In this document: positions 31,003 to 56,608 of the stretch, piece after piece
Layout: every line of letters begins with the position of its first letter
How positions within the stretch are numbered: the first letter of the stretch is position 1
From: Hesseltinella vesiculosa
Lineage: Eukaryota; Mucoromycota; Mucoromycetes; Mucorales; Cunninghamellaceae
Direction of reading: 5' to 3'
Assembly (NCBI GenBank): GCA_002104935.1
Contig: MCGT01000038.1
Coordinates: forward strand, 181,314 to 245,313
Length of the DNA: 64,000 bases
Notes under the pieces: generated by a model
Told to the model about the DNA's origin: nothing
The model's database searches: none
What the model saw: the letters and a program-made list of their open reading frames with translations, nothing else
Translations under genes and position numbers: made by a program

Positions 31003-31140
31003 CCATTGCAAGGAGTCAATAGAAGACAGCCTACACATGTTATTCCTATGCCCTGTCAAGCTGCGCTTCTGGCAAGCCTACCTTGGTTTGCAGCCTTTGT
31101 CATCACAAGTCAACCAAACAGCACCGTTCCCAGCTTTGAT
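31003..31140 (+). mobile_element. LINE F, left part (A-like)
   Basis: ORF2 zinc-finger tail (SLHMLFLCPVKLRFWQAYLG...NQTAPFPAL) cut at 31140 by LINE E. It continues at 44737-44975, and its 3' UTR end probably at 39143-39061 (inverted). GTTCCCAGCTTTGAT (31126-31140) is repeated at 44737-44751 as the TSD of LINE E. Confidence 0.8.
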
Positions 31141-31583
31141 TTTTTTTTTTTTGTATTAGATGGTGGTTTATTATGATGGGAGTCACCTCATATACATATA
31201 AAATAACATATCAGATAAAGGATAGAGATGGGAAGGATGGGATATGGACATAAGAGGAGGTCATAAGTTATAGATATGATGACATAGACACATGGTTATA
31301 AATGGGCTTAAACACTGGGGGGAGGGGCTTAATCGTGGATTAGGATTTTTGATGTAATCATCCTCTCATGTAGTTGTTTGCCATGTATTACACAGTCCCA
31401 GTGGGCAGACCATATCGCATACATGACTTTAGCTGCTAGGTCCAACTGGAAGGATTTAGCCGAGCCTGGGTTGTTCAGATTTTGCAGTATGTTTTCTTTG
31501 TGTTTAGGCGACACACTGGGGAAAAACTGGCGCCACACATTCCATTTGGGAGGGCATGATACCAGTAAGTGGTCGTCGGTTTC
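31141..31583 (-). mobile_element. LINE E, 3' part
   Basis: Starts with the T run that represents its poly(A) tail (31141-31153). The minus strand encodes the ORF2 C-terminus (LLVSCPPKWNVWRQFFPS...VMYAIWSAHWDCVIHGKQLHER, stop at 31329). It is interrupted at 31583 by LINE D, resumes at 32600-32642, is interrupted again by the LINE A block and ends at 44423-44736. The pieces join in frame across both insertions (CPIC-HQEPET-DDHLLVSC zinc finger). Confidence 0.82.
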
Positions 31584-32599
31584 TTTTTTTTTTTAAAAAA
31601 AAAACGGAGTTGTTTATTCATACTATTGTTTTGCATATTCTTAGGTTGTTCATGGTTGTCTTAGTTTCATAGGCTTAGGTGATGGGGGCAGTTGTTCTGT
31701 GTATGGCTGGCATAGATATCAGGATGGGTAACCAGATCTCGGGCTCCAAAGGTGTTTGTTCAAAGACATGGGCCCAGTGGGCCTTCCATACCCAGTGCAT
31801 GATGCTGCCTAGAGTGATTTTGCTAGTCTCATCGGTTTTGCGTCTGGCGAAAATGGACTCTAGATGTTCGGTGGCCAGGATGTTGGGGGTCTGTAAGGTG
31901 TCTACCGCTGCTTGCCAAAGCTGTTTTTTGATGGGACACAAAAAGAGCATGTGTTGCGTGTCCTCTATCGTGGGTTCACTACAGTGATTGCACCATGGCT
32001 TGATGCTATTCTTGTCCCATCGTGAGCGGACTAGGTTTGTAGGAACTTTATCATGTAGGACTCGCCACCAGACTTCCTTGGACTTGGGGTCTATTCGTCT
32101 TTTCCAGAAGGCAGTCCACCAGCTAGCATTTAGCCTATGTATGATGTGTGGCACGAAAGGGATTGTTGTTGGGTGAATGTCGTTTTTGGCCCTGGACTGG
32201 ATAGCTAGGCGTGTTTCATTGGTCGAGCCTTGCACGTACCGGTAGCTGTTTGGGTCTATATTGCTAGTGAGTCTCTGGTGGCGGTTGATCAGCCACAAGG
32301 GAGGGTGCTTGGCTTGAGAGATTGTCATTCCTGTGTTCACGATGTTCTTGGGGTCCGAAGATCGGCTGGCAGGAAGGCCACCTGACAGGGCCATGGCAAT
32401 CTTCCGAATTTTTGGGTCCTTAGAATTCATGTTGATCAAGCGGTTGACCAGGGGGGCTTGTAGGGCTATTGCCTGCGTGTCTATGTCCAGCAGACCTAGG
32501 CCACCTTCTGTTCTTGGTAAGCACAGGACAGCGTGTTGGATGGCAGGTTGTTTCCCCCATACGAATTTGTCGATTCTGCTTCTGATTTTTGTGATCGTG
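31584..32599 (-). mobile_element. LINE D, 5'-truncated, inserted in LINE E
   Basis: T run at the left (poly(A) tail on the minus strand), then the ORF2 C-terminal third (about 32590-31675): DKFVWGKQPAIQHAVLCLPR, GGLGLLDI, WWRVLHDKVPTNLVRSRWD, zinc-finger CNHC...HMLFLCP. Flanked by the 13-bp TSD GGTCGTCGGTTTC (31571-31583 and 32600-32612), which proves insertion into LINE E. Confidence 0.85.
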
Positions 32600-32626
32600 G
32601 GTCGTCGGTTTCTGGTTCTTGGTGAC

Positions 32627-32642
32627 AAATGGGGCAGATATC
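32627..32642. repeat. TSD 'a' of LINE A, partner at 44423-44438
   Basis: AAATGGGGCAGATATC occurs next to the 3' (poly-T) end of copy 1 and again next to the 5' end of copy 2. A TSD should flank a single element; here it flanks two different copies (see findings). Confidence 0.9.
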
Positions 32643-32782
32643 TTTTTTTTTTTTTTAAAATAAAAAAACAATGCTTTATTGCATACTTAAATTAAGTTAT
32701 GGTGTTGTCACAACAAACTAAGCATCAGGGAAGAAAGGCAAACAAACTATGGCGAGTGAGGTAGAGGGTAGGGGAACAAGTT

Positions 32783-35700
32783 TTACGGTCGGACGCTAGG
32801 GTGGGGGCGGGTGGCTGTGCTATGGTAGCGCGCTAACCACAGCAGGGGATCCATGGGGACCTGCTCGCGTTCGTACGCCCAGTGGGCCAGCCAGAGGACA
32901 TATAGAATGCGGCTGAACCGGATCAAGATGGGTTGTGCGGCTTTTTCAAGGAACATCAGTGCTGGGAAAGGTGCTGTTTGCTTGGCTTGTTCGGACAGAG
33001 GCTGCAGGCTGAGGTAGGCTTGCCAAAAACGCAACTTGGTCGGGCACAGGAACATCATGTGCACACTGTCTTCGGTTGGTGCATCACAGTGTGCGCACGC
33101 GGTTGACACATCGCAGGACCATTTGGCTCGGATCTTGGCTGTTGGGACCTTGTTGTGGAGGACACGCCACCATACTTCCTTGACTTTGGGTAGGCCAGGG
33201 TGTTTCCAAAACCAACGCCATTGGGCCTCCGTGACTCGATGGATAGCATGCTCTTGATTTGGGGGGTGCGTCGGGTAGATTTTGCTCTTATTCGCAGTGG
33301 CGAGCACCCTACGGATCTCACCAGTAGACATGGACCACGATAAGGCTGGGTTGGTATCCACTTCCACTAAAGCAGCGCGGGTGTTGCGCAGGCAGCCGGG
33401 GGGGCCGAGGTTGCGGGGCCATCCCCATCCCAGTAAGTCAGATGCGCGTTGTGCAAAAAGGTCCTTGGCTTCATTGGCGAGAACTCGGCGGCCGACAAAG
33501 GACCGTAGTGCTAAGGCTTGATGGATCGGGTTGATGATACCCAGCCCGCCTTCGAGTTTCGGTAGGCATGCCACATCATCTAGGAGTCTGGGTTGCTTGT
33601 TCCACACAAAATCGATCACCAAACGCCGTATTGATTTCATGCAACCAGGGGACAGGGGCGCCACACGGGCGACGTGCCACAACCGTGAGAGGATCAAAGA
33701 GTTCACCAGCAGGGACTTGCCCATGATGCTCAGGCCTCTGGGTCGCAGGACGTTGCAGTTCGACTTGGTTTTGGTCACGAGGTCATTCTCGGCGGCTGCA
33801 CGTTGCGCTGTCGATGAGGTCAAAGGGTAGCCGAGGTATACTAGGGCGTTCGCGGACGATTGGTCGTGCCATAGAGCTTCTTGACTGGCTGCGATGCGTT
33901 TCCAAGCGCCCGTCCTTTTGCCAGAGAAAGGGAAGAAAACGGTTTTCGCCTTGTTCATCTTGGCGTTGGAGGCATGGCTGTAGATCTGTATCGTGTCTAG
34001 GATACTGTCCCAACAGGCGGGGTCTTCGGCAATGATCAGTACGTCGTCAGCGTAGGCTAGAGCTATCGGTGCTGGGGGACCAGAAGGTACTGCAGCAACC
34101 AGGCGTGTAGGGCGGCGGTGGAGCAGTGTTCTTGACCTGGCTAGGCCAGGGTGGTGCCCCTGTGGGCTATCTTCATCGCTGGGTGTGGATGTGGTGGGTG
34201 GATTGTTGGGACGTCGCAGTCTGGTCAGCAGGGGCTCGATGGCTAGGTTGAACAATAGAGGGGAAAGAGGGTCCCCTTGTCGCAGGCCTCGCGCTTGATT
34301 GACTGGTTCAGAGAGCCAGCCATTGACGGAAACCAGGATTTGGTTGTCAAAAAAAAGATTTCTGATGCACTGGACGAAGGATGATGGGAAGCCATAGGCG
34401 GTCAGTGTGGCAGTGAGGTAATCTGGGTGGACTCGATCGTAAGCTTTTTCTTGATCCAGCATGATACCGTGGGCCGTTGAGCATGATCGTGGTTGTTGTG
34501 CTAGTTCCATGCACGCTGTGACATACCAGCCGTGATCGGCGATCTGTCGACCGTGCACAAACCCTTTTTGGTCGGGGTGGAGGATAAGGTCTAATGCTGG
34601 TTGGAGGCGGTTTGCCAGCATCTTGGTGAAGAGCTTGCAATCTGTGTTCAACAAGGATAATGGTCTCCAGTTGGCTAGATTGGTAGAGCAACCTTTCTTG
34701 TATAGGAGGATCAGCTTGGCCAGTTTCCAGGACTTCGGAAAAATGCCATTGGAGGCTTCTCTGAGTACATTCATGAAGAGGTTGAAGGTTCGGGGGCAAA
34801 GGTTTAGAATAGTTTTCAGTAATTCAAAGCTGATACCATCCAGACCGGGGGACTTGTCCTTGGGCGTGTGCGAGAGGGCTGACCTCAGCTCATCTTCTGT
34901 TGGCGGGGCAGATAAGGCATCGAGAGTCGAGGGACTTATCTCTCGGTGGCTTTGAGCGTATCTTGTCATGTCTGAGATGGCTGATGGATCCGTCGGTTCT
35001 TGGCGGTACAACTGGGAGTAGAAATCCCGGGTGAGCTTGTTGACTTTTCTCATCTCCGTGTACGTGGTGCCAGTGGATGGGTCGGTGATCCCTTGTAGCG
35101 TTGTTTGGCCCGTGCGCCTTTGAATGGTCCGGTAAAAAAATTTGGTGTTGCGTTCACCTTCCTCCAACCAGCGAGTGGCTGATCTGATTCGTAGGCTTTC
35201 CATATACCGTTGCGTATGCTGGTCAATGCTGTCCTCGATCTTGTCCAGGGATTTTCCAGTTTCACCTTGTCGATCCTTCGGCAAGGCTTGCAGGAGCGAT
35301 GCACGGCTTGACTGGAGGTTGGTCAGCTCCTCAGACTGGGACACCTTAAGCTTCCTTCCGATGTTGACTGCCAATATCTGGACGGATGTCTTCAAGCTCT
35401 CCCATTGTTCTTGTGGTGAGAGGTCAGGATGCTTACGACGAGTATGGAAAGCTGCCAGCAGTTTCTCTAATTGCGCCATGAAGAGTTCACTGCCAAGAAG
35501 TTGGTTATTGAAACGCCACGTACCCGGACCCATGGTGGGTCTCTGCAGAATCAGGTCCACATAAACCAGGTGGTGGTCGGTCCATAATCGTGGTAAAAAA
35601 ATTGGCCGGAGGCTTGGGCAAGTTCCGCCCCAGCGTCATTGCCAAGGACATAGTCGATGGTGGTCCGATGGAATTGTGTGGATTTGAACGTGGGTGCCGG

Positions 35701-36306
35701 CGTGTAACTGTGACGGTCTGAGGTCTTTTCAGTAGTGAGGCGTACAAGATCGTGGTGTTGTTCCCATAGGTCTGTTGCAAAGTCCCGATCCGCTCCTGGT
35801 AGAGAGGTGTCATAAAGGTGGACGTTAAAGTCCCCACAAATGATCCATGGATTGGACGGGTCCGCGACGATTGCTGGGTGAGTGAAGATATCCCTTTGTT
35901 TGCGGTGACGAGCGGTGGCTGAGGTTGGCATGTAAATAGATGCTATGTTCGTGACTGTGGTTCCTGTAGTGTTATCAATAACGGTGGCGGTTGTGATTCG
36001 TTCGTCCGTTGATATACTTTCGTTGGTGAGGGAAAAGTGGCGGTTGATGCATATTATGGCAGTTTTGGATGACGCACAATAGGATCGACCTTGGAGTAAA
36101 GATTGTAGTCGTTGTTCATTTTCGTGGGACAGGTGTGCTTGTCTGGCTAAGGGGTTTTGGACGTCTTGCAGGCAGAGGATGTCCACGTGGTGTTTTTGTC
36201 GGTTGATGATGTACTTCAGGAATTCGGATTTGGTGGTGCGGTTATGGATGGTGAGCAGACTCCTCGCGTTGAGGGTTGCTATGCGAAGACTTGGTTGTCC
36301 ACTCAT
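32783..36306 (-). pseudogene. LINE A copy 1 ORF2 (endonuclease/RT), one frameshift
   Basis: Same as copy 3 ORF2 except for a 7-A run at about 35594 where copies 2 and 3 have eight. This splits the frame into an endonuclease part (36306-35551) and an RT part (35560-32783). Otherwise all motifs are intact (LAYADDVLII, C-terminal CAHC...HMMFLC). The single homopolymer change could also be a sequencing error. Confidence 0.85.
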
Positions 36307-37763
36307 TGACGCAGATTATGATGTGCGCCGTTTTCCAGGCGCGCGGATCGGGGTCGCTGTGTTCTAGCTGGTGGATCAGCGCTGATTTTGGCTCGTGGGC
36401 TGTTAATACGTTTCGATGGAGGTGCAAGCACAGCTGCATCTTCATCAGTCGAGTCCATGAGTTCCTCGGGCTCATCTGTCTTCATAGATGTACCAATTGC
36501 GTATGATGCGTGCTTGGATGCAGCTGTTCCGTCAGGTACGTCTCGTTGCTCGTCTGTATTCTTGTACTTCGGCTTAACTAGGCTGATGAGACCGTCGTCT
36601 TCCGAGTATTCTAGCTGAATATCGTCCATCTCTTCATTGGGTTCCGTTGAGTGGATCAGGGACGTGTTTTCGAGAGTCGGTGATTCGGTGGCTGCCTCCG
36701 ACATCGTCGCCTCCATGTCATCGTCTTCCATGGTTACTGGGTCGTCCGTGACCTTTGATGTGGTGGGTACCAGAAGTGGGCTGGGGTGGTCTCTCTTGGC
36801 AGGGTGCAAGGCGATCCTCTTTTTGGCCTCCCCCGCATGTGTGGGCATGGTTCGTTTCAGCTCACCCTCACCTGGTCGGTGTATCGCCTTCGTTCGACAA
36901 TATTTCTTGATATGGCCCTGGTCACCACACTTGTAGCAAACGATGTTGGCCCTTTTCGGGCAGTCCTTTCGCATGTGGCCTGTCAAGCGGCAGTGGAAGC
37001 AGATCGAGGGGGCCCCGCTGTAGCGCACCGGTGCGAGCATGTCCCATTGCGTCAGGTACATCATTCGATTCAGAGGCAGATAGACATCCTCTGGTTCGTC
37101 TTCCCCCTCAGAAGGTTGTCGAGGGTTGGACCGGTCTACCATCACCGAGACCTCGCCTTCGAAAAAGCCGCCTCGAGTGTATTTTGAGATTTGCATCACT
37201 TGGCCATAGTTGGCGCACGAGTCCTTGAGACCTTCAATCAGTTCCTGATCTTCCACTTTAGGCACTCGACTAATATAAAGTCGAACCATTTTAGGTGGAT
37301 TCTTCCCCCCTGCGCTTGCAGGTGTGGCCTTGAATGTCATGCCTTCGATGGTGATCCCTATTTCAATGGCTTTGCGCGAGTCTGCGCTGTTCTGAAATTT
37401 GATATCCAACATTACCAAGTCCTTCTTTTGGAAGTCCCCTTGGACAGGCGAAATTCCGACCACGGGACCTAATTTATCTTGTACTACTTTGTATACTTGA
37501 ACCACATTTTCAAAAAAGCGGGTGGGTAGGGTGAGGAGCACATTGTCAGGGTCTAAAGCAGCTTCTAGGATGCGTTCAGCATCACTGATGGTCTTTCGAG
37601 CCATTAAGTCGGGTTCTTCATATAGTGTCTCGAACACTGGTTTCGTTGATCCAAAGAAATTGTCTTTTCCAGGGATCATGTCAACTCCTTTGGGGATCGT
37701 TACATTGCATGTACGTCTTGCAATTTCGACATAGGAAACGGTTTTTGTACCTCCAGCAGTCAT
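36303..37763 (-). CDS. LINE A copy 1 ORF1 protein
   Basis: Intact, 486 aa, identical as far as I can see to ORF1 of copies 2 and 3. Two CCHC knuckles (CFHCRLTGHMRKDC and CYKCGDQGHIKKYC) near residues 254-291, preceded by an RRM-like region (MVRLYISRVPKVEDQELIEGL), followed by an acidic, disordered C-terminal half. Gag-like RNA-binding protein. Its stop overlaps the ORF2 start as ATGA. Confidence 0.9.
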   Translation of the reverse strand: MTAGGTKTVSYVEIARRTCNVTIPKGVDMIPGKDNFFGSTKPVFETLYEEPDLMARKTISDAERILEAALDPDNVLLTLPTRFFENVVQVYKVVQDKLGPVVGISPVQGDFQKKDLVMLDIKFQNSADSRKAIEIGITIEGMTFKATPASAGGKNPPKMVRLYISRVPKVEDQELIEGLKDSCANYGQVMQISKYTRGGFFEGEVSVMVDRSNPRQPSEGEDEPEDVYLPLNRMMYLTQWDMLAPVRYSGAPSICFHCRLTGHMRKDCPKRANIVCYKCGDQGHIKKYCRTKAIHRPGEGELKRTMPTHAGEAKKRIALHPAKRDHPSPLLVPTTSKVTDDPVTMEDDDMEATMSEAATESPTLENTSLIHSTEPNEEMDDIQLEYSEDDGLISLVKPKYKNTDEQRDVPDGTAASKHASYAIGTSMKTDEPEELMDSTDEDAAVLAPPSKRINSPRAKISADPPARTQRPRSARLENGAHHNLRQ

Positions 37764-37910
37764 TATAGCTTCTACCAGAAGGTACTGAAAGGGCGTATGT
37801 TCGGCTTATGTAGTGGTTTGAGCGAGTTATAAAGCAAACAAAAGTTTTTATTCGTGTAATCTTTTATCCGAGCAAGTGGGGCTAGATTACACGAAAGAGA
37901 GTTTTTCGAT

Positions 37911-38892
37911 TCAAGAAATTTAAGCGAAAGTGATCTTTTTCATGTTTTTTTTTTCGTAGGCTTTTTTTTTTTTTTCTCCTTGCCATGTCACGTGTTTTTT
38001 TAGCGAAAATGGAGGCCAAAGAAAAAAAAATACGGGCGCTTAAAGTTTTAGCCAGGTAATTGCAAAAACTTGAGCGAAAGAGAGAATATTTTTTTGTCTT
38101 ACGTTGCGACACTGAGAAGATTTTTTTTTTTGCATGAAGTAGATTAAGATTTTTTTTGCCAGTATATTTTTTATTGTGAAGTTTAAAATTAAGGCAAAAG
38201 ACAAATATCAGAATCAAGCGGCAGTTAAAAACATAGATGCACCTCGGGTTCGAAAAAAAACCCAAATTTAGACATAGGTGAAAAATAGATGAATTTAAGG
38301 AAATACTTGCTAATTATAGTAATAAAAATAATTGTGAGCGATATATTTTTCTTTATATGGGTGGTGGATTTTTTGAAAAAATACTTTCCAAAAAAGTAGC
38401 AATTATACTTTTTTGGAAAGTATTTTTTCAAAAAATCCACCACCCATATAAAGAAAAATATATCGCTCACAATTATTTTTATTACTATAATTAGCAAGTA
38501 TTTCCTTAAATTCATCTATTTTTCACCTATGTCTAAATTTGGGTTTTTTTTCGAACCCGAGGTGCATCTATGTTTTTAACTGCCGCTTGATTCTGATATT
38601 TGTCTTTTGCCTTAATTTTAAACTTCACAATAAAAAATATACTGGCAAAAAAAATCTTAATCTACTTCATGCAAAAAAAAAATCTTCTCAGTGTCGCAAC
38701 GTAAGACAAAAAAATATTCTCTCTTTCGCTCAAGTTTTTGCAATTACCTGGCTAAAACTTTAAGCGCCCGTATTTTTTTTTCTTTGGCCTCCATTTTCGC
38801 TAAAAAAACACGTGACATGGCAAGGAGAAAAAAAAAAAAAAGCCTACGGAAAAAAAAACATGAAAAAGATCACTTTCGCTTAAATTTCTTGA
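37911..38892. repeat. Near-perfect palindrome, ~486-bp arms, 11-nt spacer
   Basis: The left arm 37911-38396 and right arm 38408-38892 are inverted copies that differ only by small homopolymer-length changes (for example 11 T versus 10 A at about 38121/38674). Centre TAGCAATTATA. Extremely A/T-rich and homopolymer-rich; the open frames in it are mirror copies of one Lys/Phe-rich shadow frame and I do not call a gene. Confidence 0.92.
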
Positions 38893-39060
38893 AAAAACGG
38901 CTCTTTCGCTTAAAATTCTCGAGAGGTAGGGTAGTCGCGCGTGGATTTGTAATGAATGACGGCTTTTTTTTAAAAAAAACAAAAAAATATATTCCCACAT
39001 ACAAAAAAAAAAAAAAATATTTATTCCTCATACAAAAAAATAACATCTTGGGCCATCTGG
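38893..39060. other. Spacer with LINE C-like 5' end
   Basis: 38921-38941 is identical to 50273-50293 at the 5' end of LINE C (GAGAGGTAGGGTAGTCGCGC core), followed by a degenerate GTAATGAATGACGG like the LINE C start region, then A/T homopolymers. Read with the flanks, it is a truncated LINE C-like 5' UTR in plus orientation. Confidence 0.5.
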
Positions 39061-39157
39061 AGTTTTTTTTTTTTTTAAAAAAACAATGCTTTATTGCATA
39101 CTTAAATTAAGTCTTCATAACAGGAGAGCGGGGAGAGAGGAGTGATGAAGCATACAG
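39061..39157 (-). mobile_element. 3' UTR end of LINE F, displaced and inverted
   Basis: On the minus strand this reads: TSD 'c' (39157-39144), a short unique 3' UTR, CTTAATTTAAGTATGCAATA..., then poly(A) (39075-39061), the typical end of an A-like LINE. It has no ORF2 attached here; the sequence left of TSD 'c' is found at 44737-44989, the rest of LINE F. Its orientation opposes LINE F. Confidence 0.7.
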
Positions 39158-39302
39158 TTTTTTTTTTTTTTTTTTTAAAATAAAAAAACAATGCTTTATT
39201 GCATACTTAAATTAAGTTATGGTGTTGTCACAACAAACTAAGCATCAGGGAAGAAAGGCAAACAAACTATGGCGAGTGAGGTAGAGGGTAGGGGAACAAG
39301 TT

Positions 39303-42300
39303 TTACGGTCGGACGCTAGGGTGGGGGTGGGTGGCTGTGCTATGGTAGCGCGCTAACCACAGCAGGGGATCCATGGGGACCTGCTCGCGTTCGTACGCCC
39401 AGTGGGCCAGCCAGAGGACATATAGAATGCGGCTGAACCGGATCAAGATGGGTTGTGCGGCTTTTTCAAGGAACATCAGTGCTGGGAAAGGTGCTGTTTG
39501 CTTGGCTTGTTCGGACAGAGGCTGCAGGCTGAGGTAGGCTTGCCAAAAACGCAACTTGGTCGGGCACAGGAACATCATGTGCACACTGTCTTCGGTTGGT
39601 GCATCACAGTGTGCGCACGCGGTTGACACATCGCAGGACCATTTGGCTCGGATCTTGGCTGTTGGGACCTTGTTGTGGAGGACACGCCACCATACTTCCT
39701 TGACTTTGGGTAGGCCAGGGTGTTTCCAAAACCAACGCCATTGGGCCTCCGTGACTCGATGGATAGCATGCTCTTGATTTGGGGGGTGCGTCGGGTAGAT
39801 TTTGCTCTTATTCGCAGTGGCGAGCACCCTACGGATCTCACCAGTAGACATGGACCACGATAAGGCTGGGTTGGTATCCACTTCCACTAAAGCAGCGCGG
39901 GTGTTGCGCAGGCAGCCGGGGGGCCGAGGTTGCGGGGCCATCCCCATCCCAGTAAGTCAGATGCGCGTTGTGCAAAAAGGTCCTTGGCTTCATTGGCGAG
40001 AACTCGGCGGCCGACAAAGGACCGTAGTGCTAAGGCTTGATGGATCGGGTTGATGATACCCAGCCCGCCTTCGAGTTTCGGTAGGCATGCCACATCATCT
40101 AGGAGTCTGGGTTGCTTGTTCCACACAAAATCGATCACCAAACGCCGTATTGATTTCATGCAACCAGGGGACAGGGGCGCCACACGGGCGACGTGCCACA
40201 ACCGTGAGAGGATCAAAGAGTTCACCAGCAGGGACTTGCCCATGATGCTCAGGCCTCTGGGTCGCAGGACGTTGCAGTTCGACTTGGTTTTGGTCACGAG
40301 GTCATTCTCGGCGGCTGCACGTTGCGCTGTCGATGAGGTCAAAGGGTAGCCGAGGTATACTAGGGCGTTCGCGGACGATTGGTCGTGCCATAGAGCTTCT
40401 TGACTGGCTGCGATGCGTTTCCAAGCGCCCGTCCTTTTGCCAGAGAAAGGGAAGAAAACGGTTTTCGCCTTGTTCATCTTGGCGTTGGAGGCATGGCTGT
40501 AGATCTGTATCGTGTCTAGGATACTGTCCCAACAGGCGGGGTCTTCGGCAATGATCAGTACGTCGTCAGCGTAGGCTAGAGCTATCGGTGCTGGGGGACC
40601 AGAAGGTACTGCAGCAACCAGGCGTGTAGGGCGGCGGTGGAGCAGTGTTCTTGACCTGGCTAGGCCAGGGTGGTGCCCCTGTGGGCTATCTTCATCGCTG
40701 GGTGTGGATGTGGTGGGTGGATTGTTGGGACGTCGCAGTCTGGTCAGCAGGGGCTCGATGGCTAGGTTGAACAATAGAGGGGAAAGAGGGTCCCCTTGTC
40801 GCAGGCCTCGCGCTTGATTGACTGGTTCAGAGAGCCAGCCATTGACGGAAACCAGGATTTGGTTGTCAAAAAAAGATTTCTGATGCACTGGACGAAGGAT
40901 GATGGGAAGCCATAGGCGGTCAGTGTGGCAGTGAGGTAATCTGGGTGGACTCGATCGTAAGCTTTTTCTTGATCCAGCATGATACCGTGGGCCGTTGAGC
41001 ATGATCGTGGTTGTTGTGCTAGTTCCATGCACGCTGTGACATACCAGCCGTGATCGGCGATCTGTCGACCGTGCACAAACCCTTTTTGGTCGGGGTGGAG
41101 GATAAGGTCTAATGCTGGTTGGAGGCGGTTTGCCAGCATCTTGGTGAAGAGCTTGCAATCTGTGTTCAACAAGGATAATGGTCTCCAGTTGGCTAGATTG
41201 GTAGAGCAACCTTTCTTGTATAGGAGGATCAGCTTGGCCAGTTTCCAGGACTTCGGAAAAATGCCATTGGAGGCTTCTCTGAGTACATTCATGAAGAGGT
41301 TGAAGGTTCGGGGCAAAGGTTTAGAATAGTTTTCAGTAATTCAAAGCTGATACCATCCAGACCGGGGGACTTGTCCTTGGCGTGTGCGAGAGGGCTGACC
41401 TCAGCTCATCTTCTGTTGGCGGGGCAGATAAGGCATCGAGAGTCGAGGGACTTATCTCTCGGTGGCTTTGAGCGTATCTTGTCATGTCTGAGATGGCTGA
41501 TGGATCCGTCGGTTCTTGGCGGTACAACTGGGAGTAGAAATCCCGGGTGAGCTTGTTGACTTTTCTCATCTCCGTGTACGTGGTGCCAGTGGATGGGTCG
41601 GTGATCCCTTGTAGCGTTGTTTGGCCCGTGCGCCTTTGAATGGTCCGGTAAAAAAATTTGGTGTTGCGTTCACCTTCCTCCAACCAGCGAGTGGCTGATC
41701 TGATTCGTAGGCTTTCCATATACCGTTGCGTATGCTGGTCAATGCTGTCCTCGATCTTGTCCAGGGATTTTCCAGTTTCACCTTGTCGATCCTTCGGCAA
41801 GGCTTGCAGGAGCGATGCACGGCTTGACTGGAGGTTGGTCAGCTCCTCAGACTGGGACACCTTAAGCTTCCTTCCGATGTTGACTGCCAATATCTGGACG
41901 GATGTCTTCAAGCTCTCCCATTGTTCTTGTGGTGAGAGGTCAGGATGCTTACGACGAGTATGGAAAGCTGCCAGCAGTTTCTCTAATTGCGCCATGAAGA
42001 GTTCACTGCCAAGAAGTTGGTTATTGAAACGCCACGTACCCGGACCCATGGTGGGTCTCTGCAGAATCAGGTCCACATAAACCAGGTGGTGGTCGGTCCA
42101 TAATCGTGGTAAAAAAAATTGGCCGGAGGCTTGGGCAAGTTCCGCCCCAGCGTCATTGCCAAGGACATAGTCGATGGTGGTCCGATGGAATTGTGTGGAT
42201 TTGAACGTGGGTGCCGGCGTGTAACTGTGACGGTCTGAGGTCTTTTCAGTAGTGAGGCGTACAAGATCGTGGTGTTGTTCCCATAGGTCTGTTGCAAAGT

Positions 42301-42823
42301 CCCGATCCGCTCCTGGTAGAGAGGTGTCATAAAGGTGGACGTTAAAGTCCCCACAAATGATCCATGGATTGGACGGGTCCGCGACGATTGCTGGGTGAGT
42401 GAAGATATCCCTTTGTTTGCGGTGACGAGCGGTGGCTGAGGTTGGCATGTAAATAGATGCTATGTTCGTGACTGTGGTTCCTGTAGTGTTATCAATAACG
42501 GTGGCGGTTGTGATTCGTTCGTCCGTTGATATACTTTCGTTGGTGAGGGAAAAGTGGCGGTTGATGCATATTATGGCAGTTTTGGATGACGCACAATAGG
42601 ATCGACCTTGGAGTAAAGATTGTAGTCGTTGTTCATTTTCGTGGGACAGGTGTGCTTGTCTGGCTAAGGGGTTTTGGACGTCTTGCAGGCAGAGGATGTC
42701 CACGTGGTGTTTTTGTCGGTTGATGATGTACTTCAGGAATTCGGATTTGGTGGTGCGGTTATGGATGGTGAGCAGACTCCTCGCGTTGAGGGTTGCTATG
42801 CGAAGACTTGGTTGTCCACTCAT
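39303..42823 (-). pseudogene. LINE A copy 2 ORF2, several 1-nt deletions
   Basis: Relative to copy 3, single bases are missing in at least four homopolymers: a G run near 41310, a G run near 41380, an A run near 40870 and a G run near 39920. The frame is therefore split into blocks starting 42823, 41316, 41209 and 39947. All changes are homopolymer-length changes, so consensus error is a real alternative to decay. Confidence 0.85.
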
Positions 42824-44280
42824 TGACGCAGATTATGATGTGCGCCGTTTTCCAGGCGCGCGGATCGGGGTCGCTGTGTTCTAGCTGGTGGATCAGCGCT
42901 GATTTTGGCTCGTGGGCTGTTAATACGTTTCGATGGAGGTGCAAGCACAGCTGCATCTTCATCAGTCGAGTCCATGAGTTCCTCGGGCTCATCTGTCTTC
43001 ATAGATGTACCAATTGCGTATGATGCGTGCTTGGATGCAGCTGTTCCGTCAGGTACGTCTCGTTGCTCGTCTGTATTCTTGTACTTCGGCTTAACTAGGC
43101 TGATGAGACCGTCGTCTTCCGAGTATTCTAGCTGAATATCGTCCATCTCTTCATTGGGTTCCGTTGAGTGGATCAGGGACGTGTTTTCGAGAGTCGGTGA
43201 TTCGGTGGCTGCCTCCGACATCGTCGCCTCCATGTCATCGTCTTCCATGGTTACTGGGTCGTCCGTGACCTTTGATGTGGTGGGTACCAGAAGTGGGCTG
43301 GGGTGGTCTCTCTTGGCAGGGTGCAAGGCGATCCTCTTTTTGGCCTCCCCCGCATGTGTGGGCATGGTTCGTTTCAGCTCACCCTCACCTGGTCGGTGTA
43401 TCGCCTTCGTTCGACAATATTTCTTGATATGGCCCTGGTCACCACACTTGTAGCAAACGATGTTGGCCCTTTTCGGGCAGTCCTTTCGCATGTGGCCTGT
43501 CAAGCGGCAGTGGAAGCAGATCGAGGGGGCCCCGCTGTAGCGCACCGGTGCGAGCATGTCCCATTGCGTCAGGTACATCATTCGATTCAGAGGCAGATAG
43601 ACATCCTCTGGTTCGTCTTCCCCCTCAGAAGGTTGTCGAGGGTTGGACCGGTCTACCATCACCGAGACCTCGCCTTCGAAAAAGCCGCCTCGAGTGTATT
43701 TTGAGATTTGCATCACTTGGCCATAGTTGGCGCACGAGTCCTTGAGACCTTCAATCAGTTCCTGATCTTCCACTTTAGGCACTCGACTAATATAAAGTCG
43801 AACCATTTTAGGTGGATTCTTCCCCCCTGCGCTTGCAGGTGTGGCCTTGAATGTCATGCCTTCGATGGTGATCCCTATTTCAATGGCTTTGCGCGAGTCT
43901 GCGCTGTTCTGAAATTTGATATCCAACATTACCAAGTCCTTCTTTTGGAAGTCCCCTTGGACAGGCGAAATTCCGACCACGGGACCTAATTTATCTTGTA
44001 CTACTTTGTATACTTGAACCACATTTTCAAAAAAGCGGGTGGGTAGGGTGAGGAGCACATTGTCAGGGTCTAAAGCAGCTTCTAGGATGCGTTCAGCATC
44101 ACTGATGGTCTTTCGAGCCATTAAGTCGGGTTCTTCATATAGTGTCTCGAACACTGGTTTCGTTGATCCAAAGAAATTGTCTTTTCCAGGGATCATGTCA
44201 ACTCCTTTGGGGATCGTTACATTGCATGTACGTCTTGCAATTTCGACATAGGAAACGGTTTTTGTACCTCCAGCAGTCAT
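42820..44280 (-). CDS. LINE A copy 2 ORF1 protein
   Basis: Intact 486-aa ORF1 with the same two CCHC knuckles and acidic tail as copy 3; ATGA overlap with ORF2. Conservation beside a broken ORF2 in the same copy supports a very recent origin or homopolymer errors. Confidence 0.9.
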   Translation of the reverse strand: MTAGGTKTVSYVEIARRTCNVTIPKGVDMIPGKDNFFGSTKPVFETLYEEPDLMARKTISDAERILEAALDPDNVLLTLPTRFFENVVQVYKVVQDKLGPVVGISPVQGDFQKKDLVMLDIKFQNSADSRKAIEIGITIEGMTFKATPASAGGKNPPKMVRLYISRVPKVEDQELIEGLKDSCANYGQVMQISKYTRGGFFEGEVSVMVDRSNPRQPSEGEDEPEDVYLPLNRMMYLTQWDMLAPVRYSGAPSICFHCRLTGHMRKDCPKRANIVCYKCGDQGHIKKYCRTKAIHRPGEGELKRTMPTHAGEAKKRIALHPAKRDHPSPLLVPTTSKVTDDPVTMEDDDMEATMSEAATESPTLENTSLIHSTEPNEEMDDIQLEYSEDDGLISLVKPKYKNTDEQRDVPDGTAASKHASYAIGTSMKTDEPEELMDSTDEDAAVLAPPSKRINSPRAKISADPPARTQRPRSARLENGAHHNLRQ

Positions 44281-44422
44281 TATAGCTTCTACCAGAAGGT
44301 ACTGAAAGGGCGTATGTTCGGCTTATGTAGTGGTTTGAGCGAGTTATAAAGCAAACAAAAGTTTTTATTCGTGTAATCTTTTATCCGAGCAAGTGGGGCT
44401 AGATTACACGAAAGAGAGTTTT

Positions 44423-44736
44423 AAATGGGGCAGATATCAGTGTCAAAGTGAGCTTGGCGGTCTACCATTCGTTTGCGAGAAGGTAGCTTGTTGTGTAGAT
44501 ACCGCCACCACACCGTCAGGCTACGGCCTGGGATCTTCAATTTCCATAGTGTCGTCCAGTCTCTCTCTGTGTGGACTGTGGGCCAGCAGCCTGCACGAGG
44601 GTGACTTGCGACGCGGATATCCTTTGGTTTCGCAGTGGCCAGGGGGATGGTCTTTCCTTGATGAGACGGCAGTTCTATGGACTTGCTTCTATTGGAGTAC
44701 CAGCCACAATGGAGCGGGGACTGAAGCATTAGCAAT
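44423..44736 (-). mobile_element. LINE E, 5'-truncated start
   Basis: Minus strand encodes WTTLWKLKIPGRSLTVWWRY, LHNKLPSRKRMVDRQAHFD and TDICPI, which continues at 32642 in CHQEPET. Similar to the corresponding part of LINE C ORF2. The 5' truncation point (44736) abuts the TSD shared with 31126-31140. Confidence 0.8.
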
Positions 44737-44989
44737 GTTCCCAGCTTTGATGTTCATAGAGAAAGCCTCCCGACCCACCTTGGCCCGATTCGGTCGCATT
44801 TTATACGTCCTCTGGCTGGCCCACTGGGCGTATGAACGAGATCAAGTCCCCATGGAACCTCTGCTATGGTTAGCTCGCTACCACAGCACTGCTACCCGCC
44901 CTCGCCACCACCAGAAATAGACCGTTTGCTCTGTCCTACACAGTACCATATACTGTCAGAGTTCGACTCACCTCACTGTATGCTTCATC
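44737..44989 (+). mobile_element. LINE F, right part
   Basis: Continues LINE F ORF2: FPALMFIEKASRPTLARFGR, ILYVLWLAHWAYERDQVPME, LLWLARYHSTA, stop at 44920, then 3' UTR up to TSD 'c' CTGTATGCTTCATC (44976-44989; inverted partner 39144-39157). Confidence 0.82.
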
Positions 44990-45001
44990 GAAAAACTCTC
45001 T

Positions 45002-45046
45002 TTCGTGTAATCTAGCCCCACTTGCTCGGATAAAAGATTACACGAA
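45002..45046 (+). promoter_or_regulatory. Conserved 5'-terminal hairpin of LINE A
   Basis: TTCGTGTAATCT (45002-45013) and its perfect inverse (45035-45046) with a 21-nt loop, about 10 nt from the 5' end. Present in all three full-length copies (also 37851-37895 and the equivalent end of copy 2). It may act in transcription start, RNA packaging or translation. Confidence 0.7.
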
Positions 45047-45133
45047 TAAAAACTTTTGTTTGCTTTATAACTCGCTCAAACCACTACATAAGCCGAACAT
45101 ACGCCCTTTCAGTACCTTCTGGTAGAAGCTATA

Positions 45134-46594
45134 ATGACTGCTGGAGGTACAAAAACCGTTTCCTATGTCGAAATTGCAAGACGTACATGCAATGTAACGA
45201 TCCCCAAAGGAGTTGACATGATCCCTGGAAAAGACAATTTCTTTGGATCAACGAAACCAGTGTTCGAGACACTATATGAAGAACCCGACTTAATGGCTCG
45301 AAAGACCATCAGTGATGCTGAACGCATCCTAGAAGCTGCTTTAGACCCTGACAATGTGCTCCTCACCCTACCCACCCGCTTTTTTGAAAATGTGGTTCAA
45401 GTATACAAAGTAGTACAAGATAAATTAGGTCCCGTGGTCGGAATTTCGCCTGTCCAAGGGGACTTCCAAAAGAAGGACTTGGTAATGTTGGATATCAAAT
45501 TTCAGAACAGCGCAGACTCGCGCAAAGCCATTGAAATAGGGATCACCATCGAAGGCATGACATTCAAGGCCACACCTGCAAGCGCAGGGGGGAAGAATCC
45601 ACCTAAAATGGTTCGACTTTATATTAGTCGAGTGCCTAAAGTGGAAGATCAGGAACTGATTGAAGGTCTCAAGGACTCGTGCGCCAACTATGGCCAAGTG
45701 ATGCAAATCTCAAAATACACTCGAGGCGGCTTTTTCGAAGGCGAGGTCTCGGTGATGGTAGACCGGTCCAACCCTCGACAACCTTCTGAGGGGGAAGACG
45801 AACCAGAGGATGTCTATCTGCCTCTGAATCGAATGATGTACCTGACGCAATGGGACATGCTCGCACCGGTGCGCTACAGCGGGGCCCCCTCGATCTGCTT
45901 CCACTGCCGCTTGACAGGCCACATGCGAAAGGACTGCCCGAAAAGGGCCAACATCGTTTGCTACAAGTGTGGTGACCAGGGCCATATCAAGAAATATTGT
46001 CGAACGAAGGCGATACACCGACCAGGTGAGGGTGAGCTGAAACGAACCATGCCCACACATGCGGGGGAGGCCAAAAAGAGGATCGCCTTGCACCCTGCCA
46101 AGAGAGACCACCCCAGCCCACTTCTGGTACCCACCACATCAAAGGTCACGGACGACCCAGTAACCATGGAAGACGATGACATGGAGGCGACGATGTCGGA
46201 GGCAGCCACCGAATCACCGACTCTCGAAAACACGTCCCTGATCCACTCAACGGAACCCAATGAAGAGATGGACGATATTCAGCTAGAATACTCGGAAGAC
46301 GACGGTCTCATCAGCCTAGTTAAGCCGAAGTACAAGAATACAGACGAGCAACGAGACGTACCTGACGGAACAGCTGCATCCAAGCACGCATCATACGCAA
46401 TTGGTACATCTATGAAGACAGATGAGCCCGAGGAACTCATGGACTCGACTGATGAAGATGCAGCTGTGCTTGCACCTCCATCGAAACGTATTAACAGCCC
46501 ACGAGCCAAAATCAGCGCTGATCCACCAGCTAGAACACAGCGACCCCGATCCGCGCGCCTGGAAAACGGCGCACATCATAATCTGCGTCAATGA
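45134..46594 (+). CDS. LINE A copy 3 ORF1: CCHC RNA-binding protein
   Basis: 486 aa. N-terminal half lacks clear motifs except an RRM-like stretch (MVRLYISRVPKVEDQ; FEGEVSVMVDR). Two CCHC zinc knuckles at about 254-291 (CFHCRLTGHMRKDC; CYKCGDQGHIKKYC). The C-terminal half is acidic and Ser/Pro-rich. By family knowledge it packages the LINE RNA with ORF2 into an RNP for target-primed reverse transcription. The stop TGA shares two bases with the ORF2 ATG (ATGA at 46591-46594), consistent with termination-reinitiation. Confidence 0.92.
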   Translation: MTAGGTKTVSYVEIARRTCNVTIPKGVDMIPGKDNFFGSTKPVFETLYEEPDLMARKTISDAERILEAALDPDNVLLTLPTRFFENVVQVYKVVQDKLGPVVGISPVQGDFQKKDLVMLDIKFQNSADSRKAIEIGITIEGMTFKATPASAGGKNPPKMVRLYISRVPKVEDQELIEGLKDSCANYGQVMQISKYTRGGFFEGEVSVMVDRSNPRQPSEGEDEPEDVYLPLNRMMYLTQWDMLAPVRYSGAPSICFHCRLTGHMRKDCPKRANIVCYKCGDQGHIKKYCRTKAIHRPGEGELKRTMPTHAGEAKKRIALHPAKRDHPSPLLVPTTSKVTDDPVTMEDDDMEATMSEAATESPTLENTSLIHSTEPNEEMDDIQLEYSEDDGLISLVKPKYKNTDEQRDVPDGTAASKHASYAIGTSMKTDEPEELMDSTDEDAAVLAPPSKRINSPRAKISADPPARTQRPRSARLENGAHHNLRQ

Positions 46595-49500
46595 GTGGAC
46601 AACCAAGTCTTCGCATAGCAACCCTCAACGCGAGGAGTCTGCTCACCATCCATAACCGCACCACCAAATCCGAATTCCTGAAGTACATCATCAACCGACA
46701 AAAACACCACGTGGACATCCTCTGCCTGCAAGACGTCCAAAACCCCTTAGCCAGACAAGCACACCTGTCCCACGAAAATGAACAACGACTACAATCTTTA
46801 CTCCAAGGTCGATCCTATTGTGCGTCATCCAAAACTGCCATAATATGCATCAACCGCCACTTTTCCCTCACCAACGAAAGTATATCAACGGACGAACGAA
46901 TCACAACCGCCACCGTTATTGATAACACTACAGGAACCACAGTCACGAACATAGCATCTATTTACATGCCAACCTCAGCCACCGCTCGTCACCGCAAACA
47001 AAGGGATATCTTCACTCACCCAGCAATCGTCGCGGACCCGTCCAATCCATGGATCATTTGTGGGGACTTTAACGTCCACCTTTATGACACCTCTCTACCA
47101 GGAGCGGATCGGGACTTTGCAACAGACCTATGGGAACAACACCACGATCTTGTACGCCTCACTACTGAAAAGACCTCAGACCGTCACAGTTACACGCCGG
47201 CACCCACGTTCAAATCCACACAATTCCATCGGACCACCATCGACTATGTCCTTGGCAATGACGCTGGGGCGGAACTTGCCCAAGCCTCCGGCCAATTTTT
47301 TTTACCACGATTATGGACCGACCACCACCTGGTTTATGTGGACCTGATTCTGCAGAGACCCACCATGGGTCCGGGTACGTGGCGTTTCAATAACCAACTT
47401 CTTGGCAGTGAACTCTTCATGGCGCAATTAGAGAAACTGCTGGCAGCTTTCCATACTCGTCGTAAGCATCCTGACCTCTCACCACAAGAACAATGGGAGA
47501 GCTTGAAGACATCCGTCCAGATATTGGCAGTCAACATCGGAAGGAAGCTTAAGGTGTCCCAGTCTGAGGAGCTGACCAACCTCCAGTCAAGCCGTGCATC
47601 GCTCCTGCAAGCCTTGCCGAAGGATCGACAAGGTGAAACTGGAAAATCCCTGGACAAGATCGAGGACAGCATTGACCAGCATACGCAACGGTATATGGAA
47701 AGCCTACGAATCAGATCAGCCACTCGCTGGTTGGAGGAAGGTGAACGCAACACCAAATTTTTTTACCGGACCATTCAAAGGCGCACGGGCCAAACAACGC
47801 TACAAGGGATCACCGACCCATCCACTGGCACCACGTACACGGAGATGAGAAAAGTCAACAAGCTCACCCGGGATTTCTACTCCCAGTTGTACCGCCAAGA
47901 ACCGACGGATCCATCAGCCATCTCAGACATGACAAGATACGCTCAAAGCCACCGAGAGATAAGTCCCTCGACTCTCGATGCCTTATCTGCCCCGCCAACA
48001 GAAGATGAGCTGAGGTCAGCCCTCTCGCACACGCCCAAGGACAAGTCCCCCGGTCTGGATGGTATCAGCTTTGAATTACTGAAAACTATTCTAAACCTTT
48101 GCCCCCGAACCTTCAACCTCTTCATGAATGTACTCAGAGAAGCCTCCAATGGCATTTTTCCGAAGTCCTGGAAACTGGCCAAGCTGATCCTCCTATACAA
48201 GAAAGGTTGCTCTACCAATCTAGCCAACTGGAGACCATTATCCTTGTTGAACACAGATTGCAAGCTCTTCACCAAGATGCTGGCAAACCGCCTCCAACCA
48301 GCATTAGACCTTATCCTCCACCCCGACCAAAAAGGGTTTGTGCACGGTCGACAGATCGCCGATCACGGCTGGTATGTCACAGCGTGCATGGAACTAGCAC
48401 AACAACCACGATCATGCTCAACGGCCCACGGTATCATGCTGGATCAAGAAAAAGCTTACGATCGAGTCCACCCAGATTACCTCACTGCCACACTGACCGC
48501 CTATGGCTTCCCATCATCCTTCGTCCAGTGCATCAGAAATCTTTTTTTTGACAACCAAATCCTGGTTTCCGTCAATGGCTGGCTCTCTGAACCAGTCAAT
48601 CAAGCGCGAGGCCTGCGACAAGGGGACCCTCTTTCCCCTCTATTGTTCAACCTAGCCATCGAGCCCCTGCTGACCAGACTGCGACGTCCCAACAATCCAC
48701 CCACCACATCCACACCCAGCGATGAAGATAGCCCACAGGGGCACCACCCTGGCCTAGCCAGGTCAAGAACACTGCTCCACCGCCGCCCTACACGCCTGGT
48801 TGCTGCAGTACCTTCTGGTCCCCCAGCACCGATAGCTCTAGCCTACGCTGACGACGTACTGATCATTGCCGAAGACCCCGCCTGTTGGGACAGTATCCTA
48901 GACACGATACAGATCTACAGCCATGCCTCCAACGCCAAGATGAACAAGGCGAAAACCGTTTTCTTCCCTTTCTCTGGCAAAAGGACGGGCGCTTGGAAAC
49001 GCATCGCAGCCAGTCAAGAAGCTCTATGGCACGACCAATCGTCCGCGAACGCCCTAGTATACCTCGGCTACCCTTTGACCTCATCGACAGCGCAACGTGC
49101 AGCCGCCGAGAATGACCTCGTGACCAAAACCAAGTCGAACTGCAACGTCCTGCGACCCAGAGGCCTGAGCATCATGGGCAAGTCCCTGCTGGTGAACTCT
49201 TTGATCCTCTCACGGTTGTGGCACGTCGCCCGTGTGGCGCCCCTGTCCCCTGGTTGCATGAAATCAATACGGCGTTTGGTGATCGATTTTGTGTGGAACA
49301 AGCAACCCAGACTCCTAGATGATGTGGCATGCCTACCGAAACTCGAAGGCGGGCTGGGTATCATCAACCCGATCCATCAAGCCTTAGCACTACGGTCCTT
49401 TGTCGGCCGCCGAGTTCTCGCCAATGAAGCCAAGGACCTTTTTGCACAACGCGCATCTGACTTACTGGGATGGGGATGGCCCCGCAACCTCGGCCCCCCC

Positions 49501-50115
49501 GGCTGCCTGCGCAACACCCGCGCTGCTTTAGTGGAAGTGGATACCAACCCAGCCTTATCGTGGTCCATGTCTACTGGTGAGATCCGTAGGGTGCTCGCCA
49601 CTGCGAATAAGAGCAAAATCTACCCGACGCACCCCCCAAATCAAGAGCATGCTATCCATCGAGTCACGGAGGCCCAATGGCGTTGGTTTTGGAAACACCC
49701 TGGCCTACCCAAAGTCAAGGAAGTATGGTGGCGTGTCCTCCACAACAAGGTCCCAACAGCCAAGATCCGAGCCAAATGGTCCTGCGATGTGTCAACCGCG
49801 TGCGCACACTGTGATGCACCAACCGAAGACAGTGTGCACATGATGTTCCTGTGCCCGACCAAGTTGCGTTTTTGGCAAGCCTACCTCAGCCTGCAGCCTC
49901 TGTCCGAACAAGCCAAGCAAACAGCACCTTTCCCAGCACTGATGTTCCTTGAAAAAGCCGCACAACCCATCTTGATCCGGTTCAGCCGCATTCTATATGT
50001 CCTCTGGCTGGCCCACTGGGCGTACGAACGCGAGCAGGTCCCCATGGATCCCCTGCTGTGGTTAGCGCGCTACCATAGCACAGCCACCCGCCCCCACCCT
50101 AGCGTCCGACCGTAA
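46591..50115 (+). CDS. LINE A copy 3 ORF2: AP endonuclease / reverse transcriptase
   Basis: 1174 aa, single intact frame. Endonuclease, about 1-245: IATLNARSLL, VDILCLQDVQ, WIICGDFNVHLYD, RTTIDYVLGN, LWTDHHLVYVDL. The catalytic position that is Glu in LINEs B and C (CIQE) is Asp here. RT, about 470-900: TPKDKSPGLDGISFELLK, RGLRQGDPLSPLLFNLAIEP and LAYADDVLIIAED with the YADD catalytic pair near 750. C-terminus: WWR-VLHNKVP and a CCHC finger (CAHCDAPTEDSVHMMFLC, about 1070). It nicks the target and primes cDNA synthesis. Start is fixed by the ATGA overlap. Confidence 0.94.
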   Translation: MSGQPSLRIATLNARSLLTIHNRTTKSEFLKYIINRQKHHVDILCLQDVQNPLARQAHLSHENEQRLQSLLQGRSYCASSKTAIICINRHFSLTNESISTDERITTATVIDNTTGTTVTNIASIYMPTSATARHRKQRDIFTHPAIVADPSNPWIICGDFNVHLYDTSLPGADRDFATDLWEQHHDLVRLTTEKTSDRHSYTPAPTFKSTQFHRTTIDYVLGNDAGAELAQASGQFFLPRLWTDHHLVYVDLILQRPTMGPGTWRFNNQLLGSELFMAQLEKLLAAFHTRRKHPDLSPQEQWESLKTSVQILAVNIGRKLKVSQSEELTNLQSSRASLLQALPKDRQGETGKSLDKIEDSIDQHTQRYMESLRIRSATRWLEEGERNTKFFYRTIQRRTGQTTLQGITDPSTGTTYTEMRKVNKLTRDFYSQLYRQEPTDPSAISDMTRYAQSHREISPSTLDALSAPPTEDELRSALSHTPKDKSPGLDGISFELLKTILNLCPRTFNLFMNVLREASNGIFPKSWKLAKLILLYKKGCSTNLANWRPLSLLNTDCKLFTKMLANRLQPALDLILHPDQKGFVHGRQIADHGWYVTACMELAQQPRSCSTAHGIMLDQEKAYDRVHPDYLTATLTAYGFPSSFVQCIRNLFFDNQILVSVNGWLSEPVNQARGLRQGDPLSPLLFNLAIEPLLTRLRRPNNPPTTSTPSDEDSPQGHHPGLARSRTLLHRRPTRLVAAVPSGPPAPIALAYADDVLIIAEDPACWDSILDTIQIYSHASNAKMNKAKTVFFPFSGKRTGAWKRIAASQEALWHDQSSANALVYLGYPLTSSTAQRAAAENDLVTKTKSNCNVLRPRGLSIMGKSLLVNSLILSRLWHVARVAPLSPGCMKSIRRLVIDFVWNKQPRLLDDVACLPKLEGGLGIINPIHQALALRSFVGRRVLANEAKDLFAQRASDLLGWGWPRNLGPPGCLRNTRAALVEVDTNPALSWSMSTGEIRRVLATANKSKIYPTHPPNQEHAIHRVTEAQWRWFWKHPGLPKVKEVWWRVLHNKVPTAKIRAKWSCDVSTACAHCDAPTEDSVHMMFLCPTKLRFWQAYLSLQPLSEQAKQTAPFPALMFLEKAAQPILIRFSRILYVLWLAHWAYEREQVPMDPLLWLARYHSTATRPHPSVRP

Positions 50116-50259
50116 AACTTGTTCCCCTACCCTCTACCTCACTCGCCATAGTTTGTTTGCCTTTCTTCCCTGATGCTTAGTTTGTTGTGACAACACCATA
50201 ACTTAATTTAAGTATGCAATAAAGCATTGTTTTTTTATTTTAAAAAAAAAAAAAAAAAA

Positions 50260-50274
50260 GCTTAAATTTCTTGA
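50260..50274. repeat. TSD 'b' of LINE A, inverted partner at 37911-37925
   Basis: GCTTAAATTTCTTGA follows the poly(A) of copy 3 and appears, inverted, beside the 5' end of copy 1. The same 15-mer also ends the right palindrome arm at 38878-38892. Confidence 0.88.
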
Positions 50275-51392
50275 GAGGTAGGGTAGTCGCGCGCGATCGA
50301 ACAGCCCCCCTTTTTATACTTTTTGCTCAAACCTTATTACGTTTAAAGTTAAACTCTATCCCCCTTCCAGCCGCTTCTTTTCCATTTTTGTCGAAATTCG
50401 TAATGAAGGACGACGTGATGGCGGAGACGCCCCCCGAAGACCAATTGTCATGGTCCGCTGTGGTTACCAAAGGTCGCACCAATGCAACGGTACCTAGAAT
50501 GCTAACAAGAAAGTCCCCCCTTGGACAAAAGGAACGCCTTGAACACTCGATCATCTTTGAAACTCCAGACATTCAGCAGAAATGGCTCACCCAGAGAGCC
50601 GCGGCTATTATTCAGAATTCACTGCATCCTGATACTGTTCTCTTTGAACTTCGAGCCAACGATTTTGAACATTACACAGATGCGTATCGTTTACTAATTG
50701 AGAAGATTGGCCCTCTTAAAGGGAATGGTGCCCGCCCCATCTCCCGCTTTGGTAATGCACTCAAACCAGAGCTCATTATCGAAACCAAGTTTGAAACCCC
50801 TGAACTGAACAAGAAAGCCGTGACCGAAGGATTCCAACATAAGGGTGTCCTGTACAAAGCTGTCCCGGCAGGCTCCAAAACGGAAGGAAACCGCCTGCAG
50901 ACAGTGACCATTGGCCAAATCCCGTGTTTTTTAACTGACGAAGAAATCACTGCTGGCCTCAAGAGATCGCTGCGCTTCTTCGGGGTTGTCTCGAGAATCC
51001 GCAAGACAACCAACCGCACCTTTTTCGAAGGCGAAGTCATAGTGACTTTGGATACCTCCCCTATGGAAAATATTGAGTGGCAGCCATTGTCTCGTAGTCT
51101 GTACTTGGAAGCCTGGGACGTGATCGCTCCAGCAAACTTCAAGGGGGCCCAGGCCATTTGTTACATGTGTAACCGCGAAGGCCACCTCAAACGTAACTGC
51201 CCCAGATGGGACAATATCAAGTGCTACAACTGCAACAAATTCGGTCGTCACTTTGCCAACAAATGTACTGAGATTTCATCGAAGGAGGCTAAAGCCATCG
51301 AAAAGTTACATGCCCATAACGAGGTCATGGATGATACTGGATCTGCAGCCAATGTTAATATCGTTGCGCCAACACCCCAAGCACCAGAAACC
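50275..51392 (+). mobile_element. LINE C, 5' part
   Basis: 5' UTR and the first two thirds of ORF1, interrupted at 51392 by LINE B. GCACCAGAAACC (51381-51392) is duplicated at 56597-56608. It resumes at 56597. Confidence 0.9.
50403..51392 (+). pseudogene. LINE C ORF1, split by LINE B (N-terminal part)
   Basis: ATG at 50403 (MKDDVMAETPPEDQLSW). About 330 codons up to the insertion: RRM-like region (TVTIGQIPCFLTDEEITAGL; FFEGEVIVTLD) and two CCHC knuckles, CYMCNREGHLKRNC and CYNCNKFGRHFANKC, the second with one extra residue before His. The open frame continues into LINE B and stops at 51434, but that tail is LINE B sequence. The C-terminal part lies at 56609-57091 in the same frame, so the element was intact before LINE B jumped in. 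Confidence 0.88.
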
Positions 51393-51496
51393 CAAACTCT
51401 CTTTCCGCTAAGGAACTTCAACCAACTCGGATAAACATTTACACAGACAAACCAACAACAAAACACTTTACTGCCACCTATACGCAAGCGAGACCA

Positions 51497-52978: not shown

Positions 52979-53008
52979 TCTGCCCTGGGAGTCCCTATAT
53001 TCAATATC

Positions 53009-56533: not shown

Positions 56534-56608
56534 AATGAAATATTTTTGTAATAAATGTACACCATTGATACAAAAAAAAAAAAAAAAAAAAAAAAAGCAC
56601 CAGAAACC

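Follow-up and report, generated by a model that had tools for sequence, protein, structure and literature searches.

Repeat-mediated inversion between inverted copies of a long interspersed nuclear element (LINE) leaves near-identical inverted repeats at the breakpoints and hybrid copies with mismatched target-site duplications (TSDs), and an assembly mis-join at long near-identical repeats has its breakpoints within the repeats only and a poor consensus in the middle copy. Both patterns would fit the LINE nest described here, in which near-identical copies of one element, LINE A, lie inverted at the breakpoints with exchanged flanks. The nest belongs to the window (the whole stretch of 64,000 nucleotides analysed, G000:C32:181314-245313; 46.1% GC) at the right end of the 245,313-base contig C32, from an assembly of 27.05 Mb in 85 contigs; the other C labels used below denote contigs of the same assembly. 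The locus differs from the general case of repeat-mediated inversion in having three copies, a closed cycle and four orders that would interconvert. The structural anomaly is of a known kind, and the original order of the locus is supported.

The host is a Mucorales-type fungus, judging from a kinase gene at 20711-21973 whose best named relative is from Gongronella butleri (Mucorales, Cunninghamellaceae; 69% identity), other Mucorales coming next. The element best likened to the LINEs of this nest, by description, is Grem-LINE1 of Mucor, to which the published account ascribes a zinc-knuckle open reading frame 1 (ORF1) and an ORF2 with endonuclease, reverse transcriptase (RT) and zf-RVT domains (PMC7377519); the domain make-up, the occurrence in clusters and the Mucorales host are shared. 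The centromere of Mucor circinelloides is also relevant to this locus: according to PMC9089191, it has a core of about 1 kb with a 41-bp motif, its flanks are gene-free and hold transposons, and CENP-A is absent from Mucorales.

The three LINE A copies, of about 5.3 kb each, have pairwise identities of 99.89-99.98%:

32643-37910, minus strand: LINE A copy 1
39158-44422, minus strand: LINE A copy 2, shorter by two bases at the 5' end; differs from copies 1 and 3 by one substitution and by deletions in four homopolymers
44990-50259, plus strand: LINE A copy 3, with an ORF1 of 486 amino acids holding a zinc knuckle and an open ORF2 of 1174 amino acids

Their flanks hold three sequences, a (16 bp), b (15 bp) and c (14 bp), all exact matches:

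32627-32642, plus strand: TSD a, first of two, next to the 3' end of copy 1
44423-44438, plus strand: TSD a, second of two, next to the 5' end of copy 2
37911-37925, minus strand: TSD b, next to the 5' end of copy 1, where the left arm of a palindrome also ends
50260-50274, plus strand: TSD b, 3' side of copy 3, LINE C directly after
38878-38892, plus strand: b for the third time, within the right palindrome arm, which is uninterrupted
39144-39157, minus strand: TSD c, 3' side of copy 2
44976-44989, plus strand: TSD c, 5' side of copy 3

The three LINE A copies carry one another's TSDs in a closed cycle. When the anchored 5' and 3' flanks were compared in a 3x3 matrix, three of the nine cells matched (5' of copy 2 with 3' of copy 1, 16 bp; 5' of copy 1 with 3' of copy 3, 15 bp; 5' of copy 3 with 3' of copy 2, 14 bp) and the other six, including all three same-copy pairs, gave zero. 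Among random flank pairs of the window, only 7 of 20,000 reached at least 10 bp, the longest being 29 bp (the window contains repeats). The swap, the TSD coordinates and the near-identity of the copies given in the initial annotation are thereby confirmed. That annotation would have taken occurrence of the 14-16-mers elsewhere as a sign of chance matches; a and c pass, each being present exactly twice in the window, and b does not, as it occurs three times (37911, 38878, 50260) and again in palindrome arms of other contigs. The threefold occurrence in the window is due to the segment beside copy 1 being a near-perfect palindrome with b at both ends.

The flanking DNA was divided into segments S1 (up to 32642), S2 (37911-39157), S3 (44423-44989) and S4 (50260 onward). 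If each segment is used once and the LINE ends are respected, four orders are possible: the assembled order pairs none of the three TSDs, two orders pair one of three, and S1-S3-inverted S2-S4 pairs all three. The original order would therefore have been S1 - A(a) minus - S3 - A(c) plus - inverted S2 - A(b) plus - S4, as supported by the sequence. By reasoning, two inversions, each between opposite LINE A copies, would convert this restored order into the assembled one, and all four orders would interconvert in the same way.

Support from outside LINE A comes from the neighbouring elements and from copies of the junctions elsewhere in the assembly. The elements concerned are:

31003-31140, plus strand: 5' part of LINE F; lies to the left of LINE E and has the LINE E TSD as its last bases
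31126-31140, plus strand: left copy of the LINE E TSD, in S1
44737-44751, plus strand: right copy of the LINE E TSD, in S3
44737-44989, plus strand: body of LINE F
39061-39143, minus strand: 3' part of LINE F, apart from its body

LINE E is an older element interrupted by A(a); its TSD, GTTCCCAGCTTTGAT, has one copy in S1 and the other in S3, so S1 is needed beside S3, and LINE E has a normal TSD when the two segments are read as neighbours. A copy of LINE F on C52 is uninterrupted at the site of this TSD. The a-junction (S1 and S3 with a single a) is uninterrupted on C69:14468-14760, C43:10324-10616 and C78:807908-808200, at 99-100% identity over bases 208-500 of the 500-base query; before base 208 the query differs because LINE H is absent from those contigs. 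The c-junction (S3 and inverted S2 with a single c) matches C52:24360-24616 through c and 7 bp beyond, after which the sequences diverge, a real but short support. The displaced 3' part of LINE F reported by the initial annotation is present at its place. No outer TSD of LINE F was found within the window. LINE F begins directly behind the poly-A tail of another LINE (31003 and 39061).

Judged on these sequences, the S1-S3 join is well supported, S3-S2 supported and S2-S4 weaker. The S2-S4 join rests on TSD b together with similar layouts elsewhere: the palindromes of C73 and C78 lie between the 5' end of LINE C and a 3' end of LINE A type, which by analogy is the layout of the restored and not of the assembled order; these are separate insertions at other positions. 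Site b is also a recurrent target. LINE tails abut the same base of b on C32 (copy 3), C69 and C29/C73 (one place on overlapping contigs, with three changes in b), that is, at 50260-50274 of the window, L016 4022-4036, L048 about 106-120 and L001 548-562, and the LINE C 5' end on C32 sits exactly at the opposite edge of b. On C85 the tail ends elsewhere, and LINE C has other starting points on C73, C78 and C70. Three LINE tails, and perhaps LINE C of C32 too, used one site; such repeated use would account for the exact fit between the end of b and LINE C, and makes b alone weaker evidence than a or c. The initial annotation had overlooked this recurrence, the palindrome and the LINE E TSD that spans the block.

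The history compatible with these data begins with three young LINE A copies, each of which would have produced an ordinary TSD on entering a LINE nest already present around the AT-rich palindrome: A(a) in LINE E, A(c) in LINE F and A(b) in one arm of the palindrome, where it meets the edge of LINE C. With A(a) opposite in orientation to the other two, homologous exchange between inverted 5.3-kb copies would flip the DNA between them, two flips would produce the assembled order, and the locus would be a four-state inversion switch of which the assembly represents one state or a mixture. We give a probability of roughly 50% to the order having been changed by real exchange between LINE A copies in the cell, and inverted 5-kb repeats generally recombine readily. 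A serious contender, at somewhat less than even odds, is that the chromosome keeps the TSD-consistent order and that the assembler took the wrong way out of each near-identical 5.3-kb copy. Because the four orders are inversion isomers, exchange and mis-join yield the same sequence, and no evidence here separates them; the three normal insertions and two inversions of the initial annotation stand as the sole order that pairs all TSDs, and that annotation had itself named both cell and assembler as possible causes. The repeat graph allows four orders of which one alone is TSD-consistent, and the right edge of the LINE block is only 14 kb short of the contig end, both in line with a mis-join. 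The homopolymers may point the same way: copy 2 has lost single bases in four, copy 1 in one and copy 3 in none, and no homopolymer indel was found in LINE B (C32 against C14: 4 substitutions and one 33-bp gap) or element D (C32 against C78, two comparisons: 2 substitutions each and one other 1-bp indel). Other partners did show homopolymer indels (bases lost and gained: C73, 4 and 3; C60, 4 and 1; C69, in part, 1 and 1; C70, 8 lost). Several points weigh against exchange in the cell. Copy 2 looks under-polished, like small contigs, which suggests thin or conflicting read support; crossovers cannot be mapped, since there is only one substitution among the three copies; an uninterrupted copy of the b-junction was not found in the assembly; and b is not unique, which makes the b-join weaker. 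However, a middle copy may polish poorly even if placed correctly, ambiguous mapping can likewise produce such deletions, and LINE B, a repeat of about 5.2 kb on the same contig, was placed with its correct TSD and without homopolymer indels relative to C14, so the assembly coped with another 5-kb repeat, which favours real exchange. Long reads, moreover, usually span 5.3 kb.

Instead of two inversions, a single copying or template-switch event might have moved S2 alone into A(a): the assembled order equals the restored order with S2 relocated and turned, and the halves of LINE E keep their orientation. Such an event is very improbable, as the moved piece would need LINE A boundaries that are exact at either end, and for these ordinary exchange between the copies is explanation enough. 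It is hardly credible that the TSDs match by chance or through a common repeat, with nothing swapped. Site b does recur in palindrome arms as a repeated insertion site and is weak alone, but the window has exactly two instances each of a and c, and their junctions are uninterrupted elsewhere. Furthermore, the first 400 bases of LINE A gave at least six matches in the assembly (among them one on C60 at 71% and a short pair on C14), of which the three at 100% are all inside the window, so that the last pair of ends can match only through b.

The remaining elements of the nest are:

31585-32599, minus strand: LINE H, flanked by a normal TSD of its own (31571-31584, 32600-32613)
50275-60655, plus strand: LINE C, interrupted by LINE B
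about 51393-56596: LINE B, inside LINE C and flanked by a normal TSD (51381-51392, 56597-56608)

LINE B, at one point suspected of lacking a TSD, is inserted in LINE C with a normal 12-bp TSD; behind the tail of LINE C stands another element. LINEs A, B and C are alike in having a zinc-knuckle ORF1 and an ORF2 with Exo_endo_phos, RVT_1 and zf-RVT (Pfam matches in the ORFs; endonuclease, RT and zf-RVT in ORF2 of copy 3), and by this make-up they are L1-like LINEs of the Grem-LINE1 type. A poly-A tail with a TSD of variable length is present directly for LINEs B and H, and for the three LINE A copies after re-pairing; these three copies are very young insertions. The LINE A RT has its nearest named relatives, among the best 120 of 714, in Lichtheimia, Mucor, Rhizopus and Circinella, those in the first three genera at 36-43% (scoring was confined to the 7,992 candidates sharing most words). 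The 48 zf-RVT matches of the assembly fall mostly (40) on 14 contigs with LINE groups, the other 8 being on 7 further contigs. Grem-LINE1 elements are typical of pericentric DNA, a position that would be putative for the present LINEs. A processed histone H2A copy with poly-A and the flanking repeat AAACCACTGACTC lies inside LINE C on C73 (L001, 7544-7996), and would be an mRNA copied by LINE machinery.

Most of S2 is taken up by the palindrome:

37911-38892: near-perfect AT-rich palindrome, about 984 bp, 29.6% GC

A search of the assembly with S2, in which 40 of 113 candidates were scored, gave at least 85 matches, the 12 strongest being on six contigs (C32, C73, C14, C78, C70, C60), each of which has zf-RVT matches too. 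Self-palindromes were found at C73:9122-10347 (1,226 bp), C14:11859-13784 (1,926 bp) and C78:816468-817649 (1,182 bp), and those of C70 and C60 are shorter, with damaged left arms. LINE pieces belong to both arms in C73 and C14, which suggests that the palindrome arms copy each other. C73:1-2463 overlaps C29:5001-7468 at 99.1% over 2.5 kb, and C73 probably continues C29. The first 19 bases of LINE C (50275-50293) recur in the outer palindrome arm (38922-38940), as if its 5' end had arisen there. Many other contigs hold matches of about 82-87% to the central 315 bp of the palindrome, with as many as three on a single contig; among them is a dispersed repeat on C45 and C3 that shares this centre at 85-86%. 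This repeat was set aside as a longer element with a DDE_1 match just below the Pfam cut-off; it has at least 1.8 kb (C45 against C3) and a palindrome of its own (L022-L025, L044-L047; C45, C3, C35, C44).

Palindromes of 984-1,926 bp on C32, C73, C14 and C78, each with LINE groups, correspond to a core of about 1 kb amid transposons, so that in size and setting the palindrome fits the Mucor centromere. A tentative and on balance unlikely reading is that the palindrome, of about 1.1 kb, is a centromere core kept alike between chromosomes and a favoured landing site of several LINE families, and that the LINE A copies flip this core and its flanks in four arrangements. A centromere core would be expected once per chromosome; the occurrence of the central 315 bp in a dispersed repeat on many contigs, which is not centromere-like, speaks against the reading. 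Compared with the M. circinelloides centromere as PMC9089191 presents it, the two agree in having transposons around a core of about 1 kb and in coming from an order without CENP-A, whereas the core here is a palindrome and shares its centre with a dispersed repeat. The homogenized inverted-repeat centromeres of Candida tropicalis, in the description of PMC7292649, likewise have inverted repeats alike between chromosomes, but the arms here adjoin with almost no spacer and the phylum is different. The titles of the literature searched named no palindromic Mucorales centromere, and that search returned no paper joining Mucoromycota, centromere and palindrome. As for telomeres, four tandem TTAGGG units had no match in the assembly, and no TTAGGG-like repeat was seen by eye at 19 contig ends (140-150 bases each). 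At the start of C44 (L036, 1-140) a unit of about 9 bases, TTTGAACCG, is repeated in tandem.

Swapped TSDs give a clean sign, open to verification, that LINE-rich DNA has been inverted or wrongly ordered, and if several orders exist, this locus would measure recombination inside a LINE cluster. A review regards the centromere sequences of other Mucoromycotina as a route to understanding the loss of CENP-A (PMC9089191). The palindrome, as a short candidate centromere core in Mucorales, would weigh more than the TSD swap itself.

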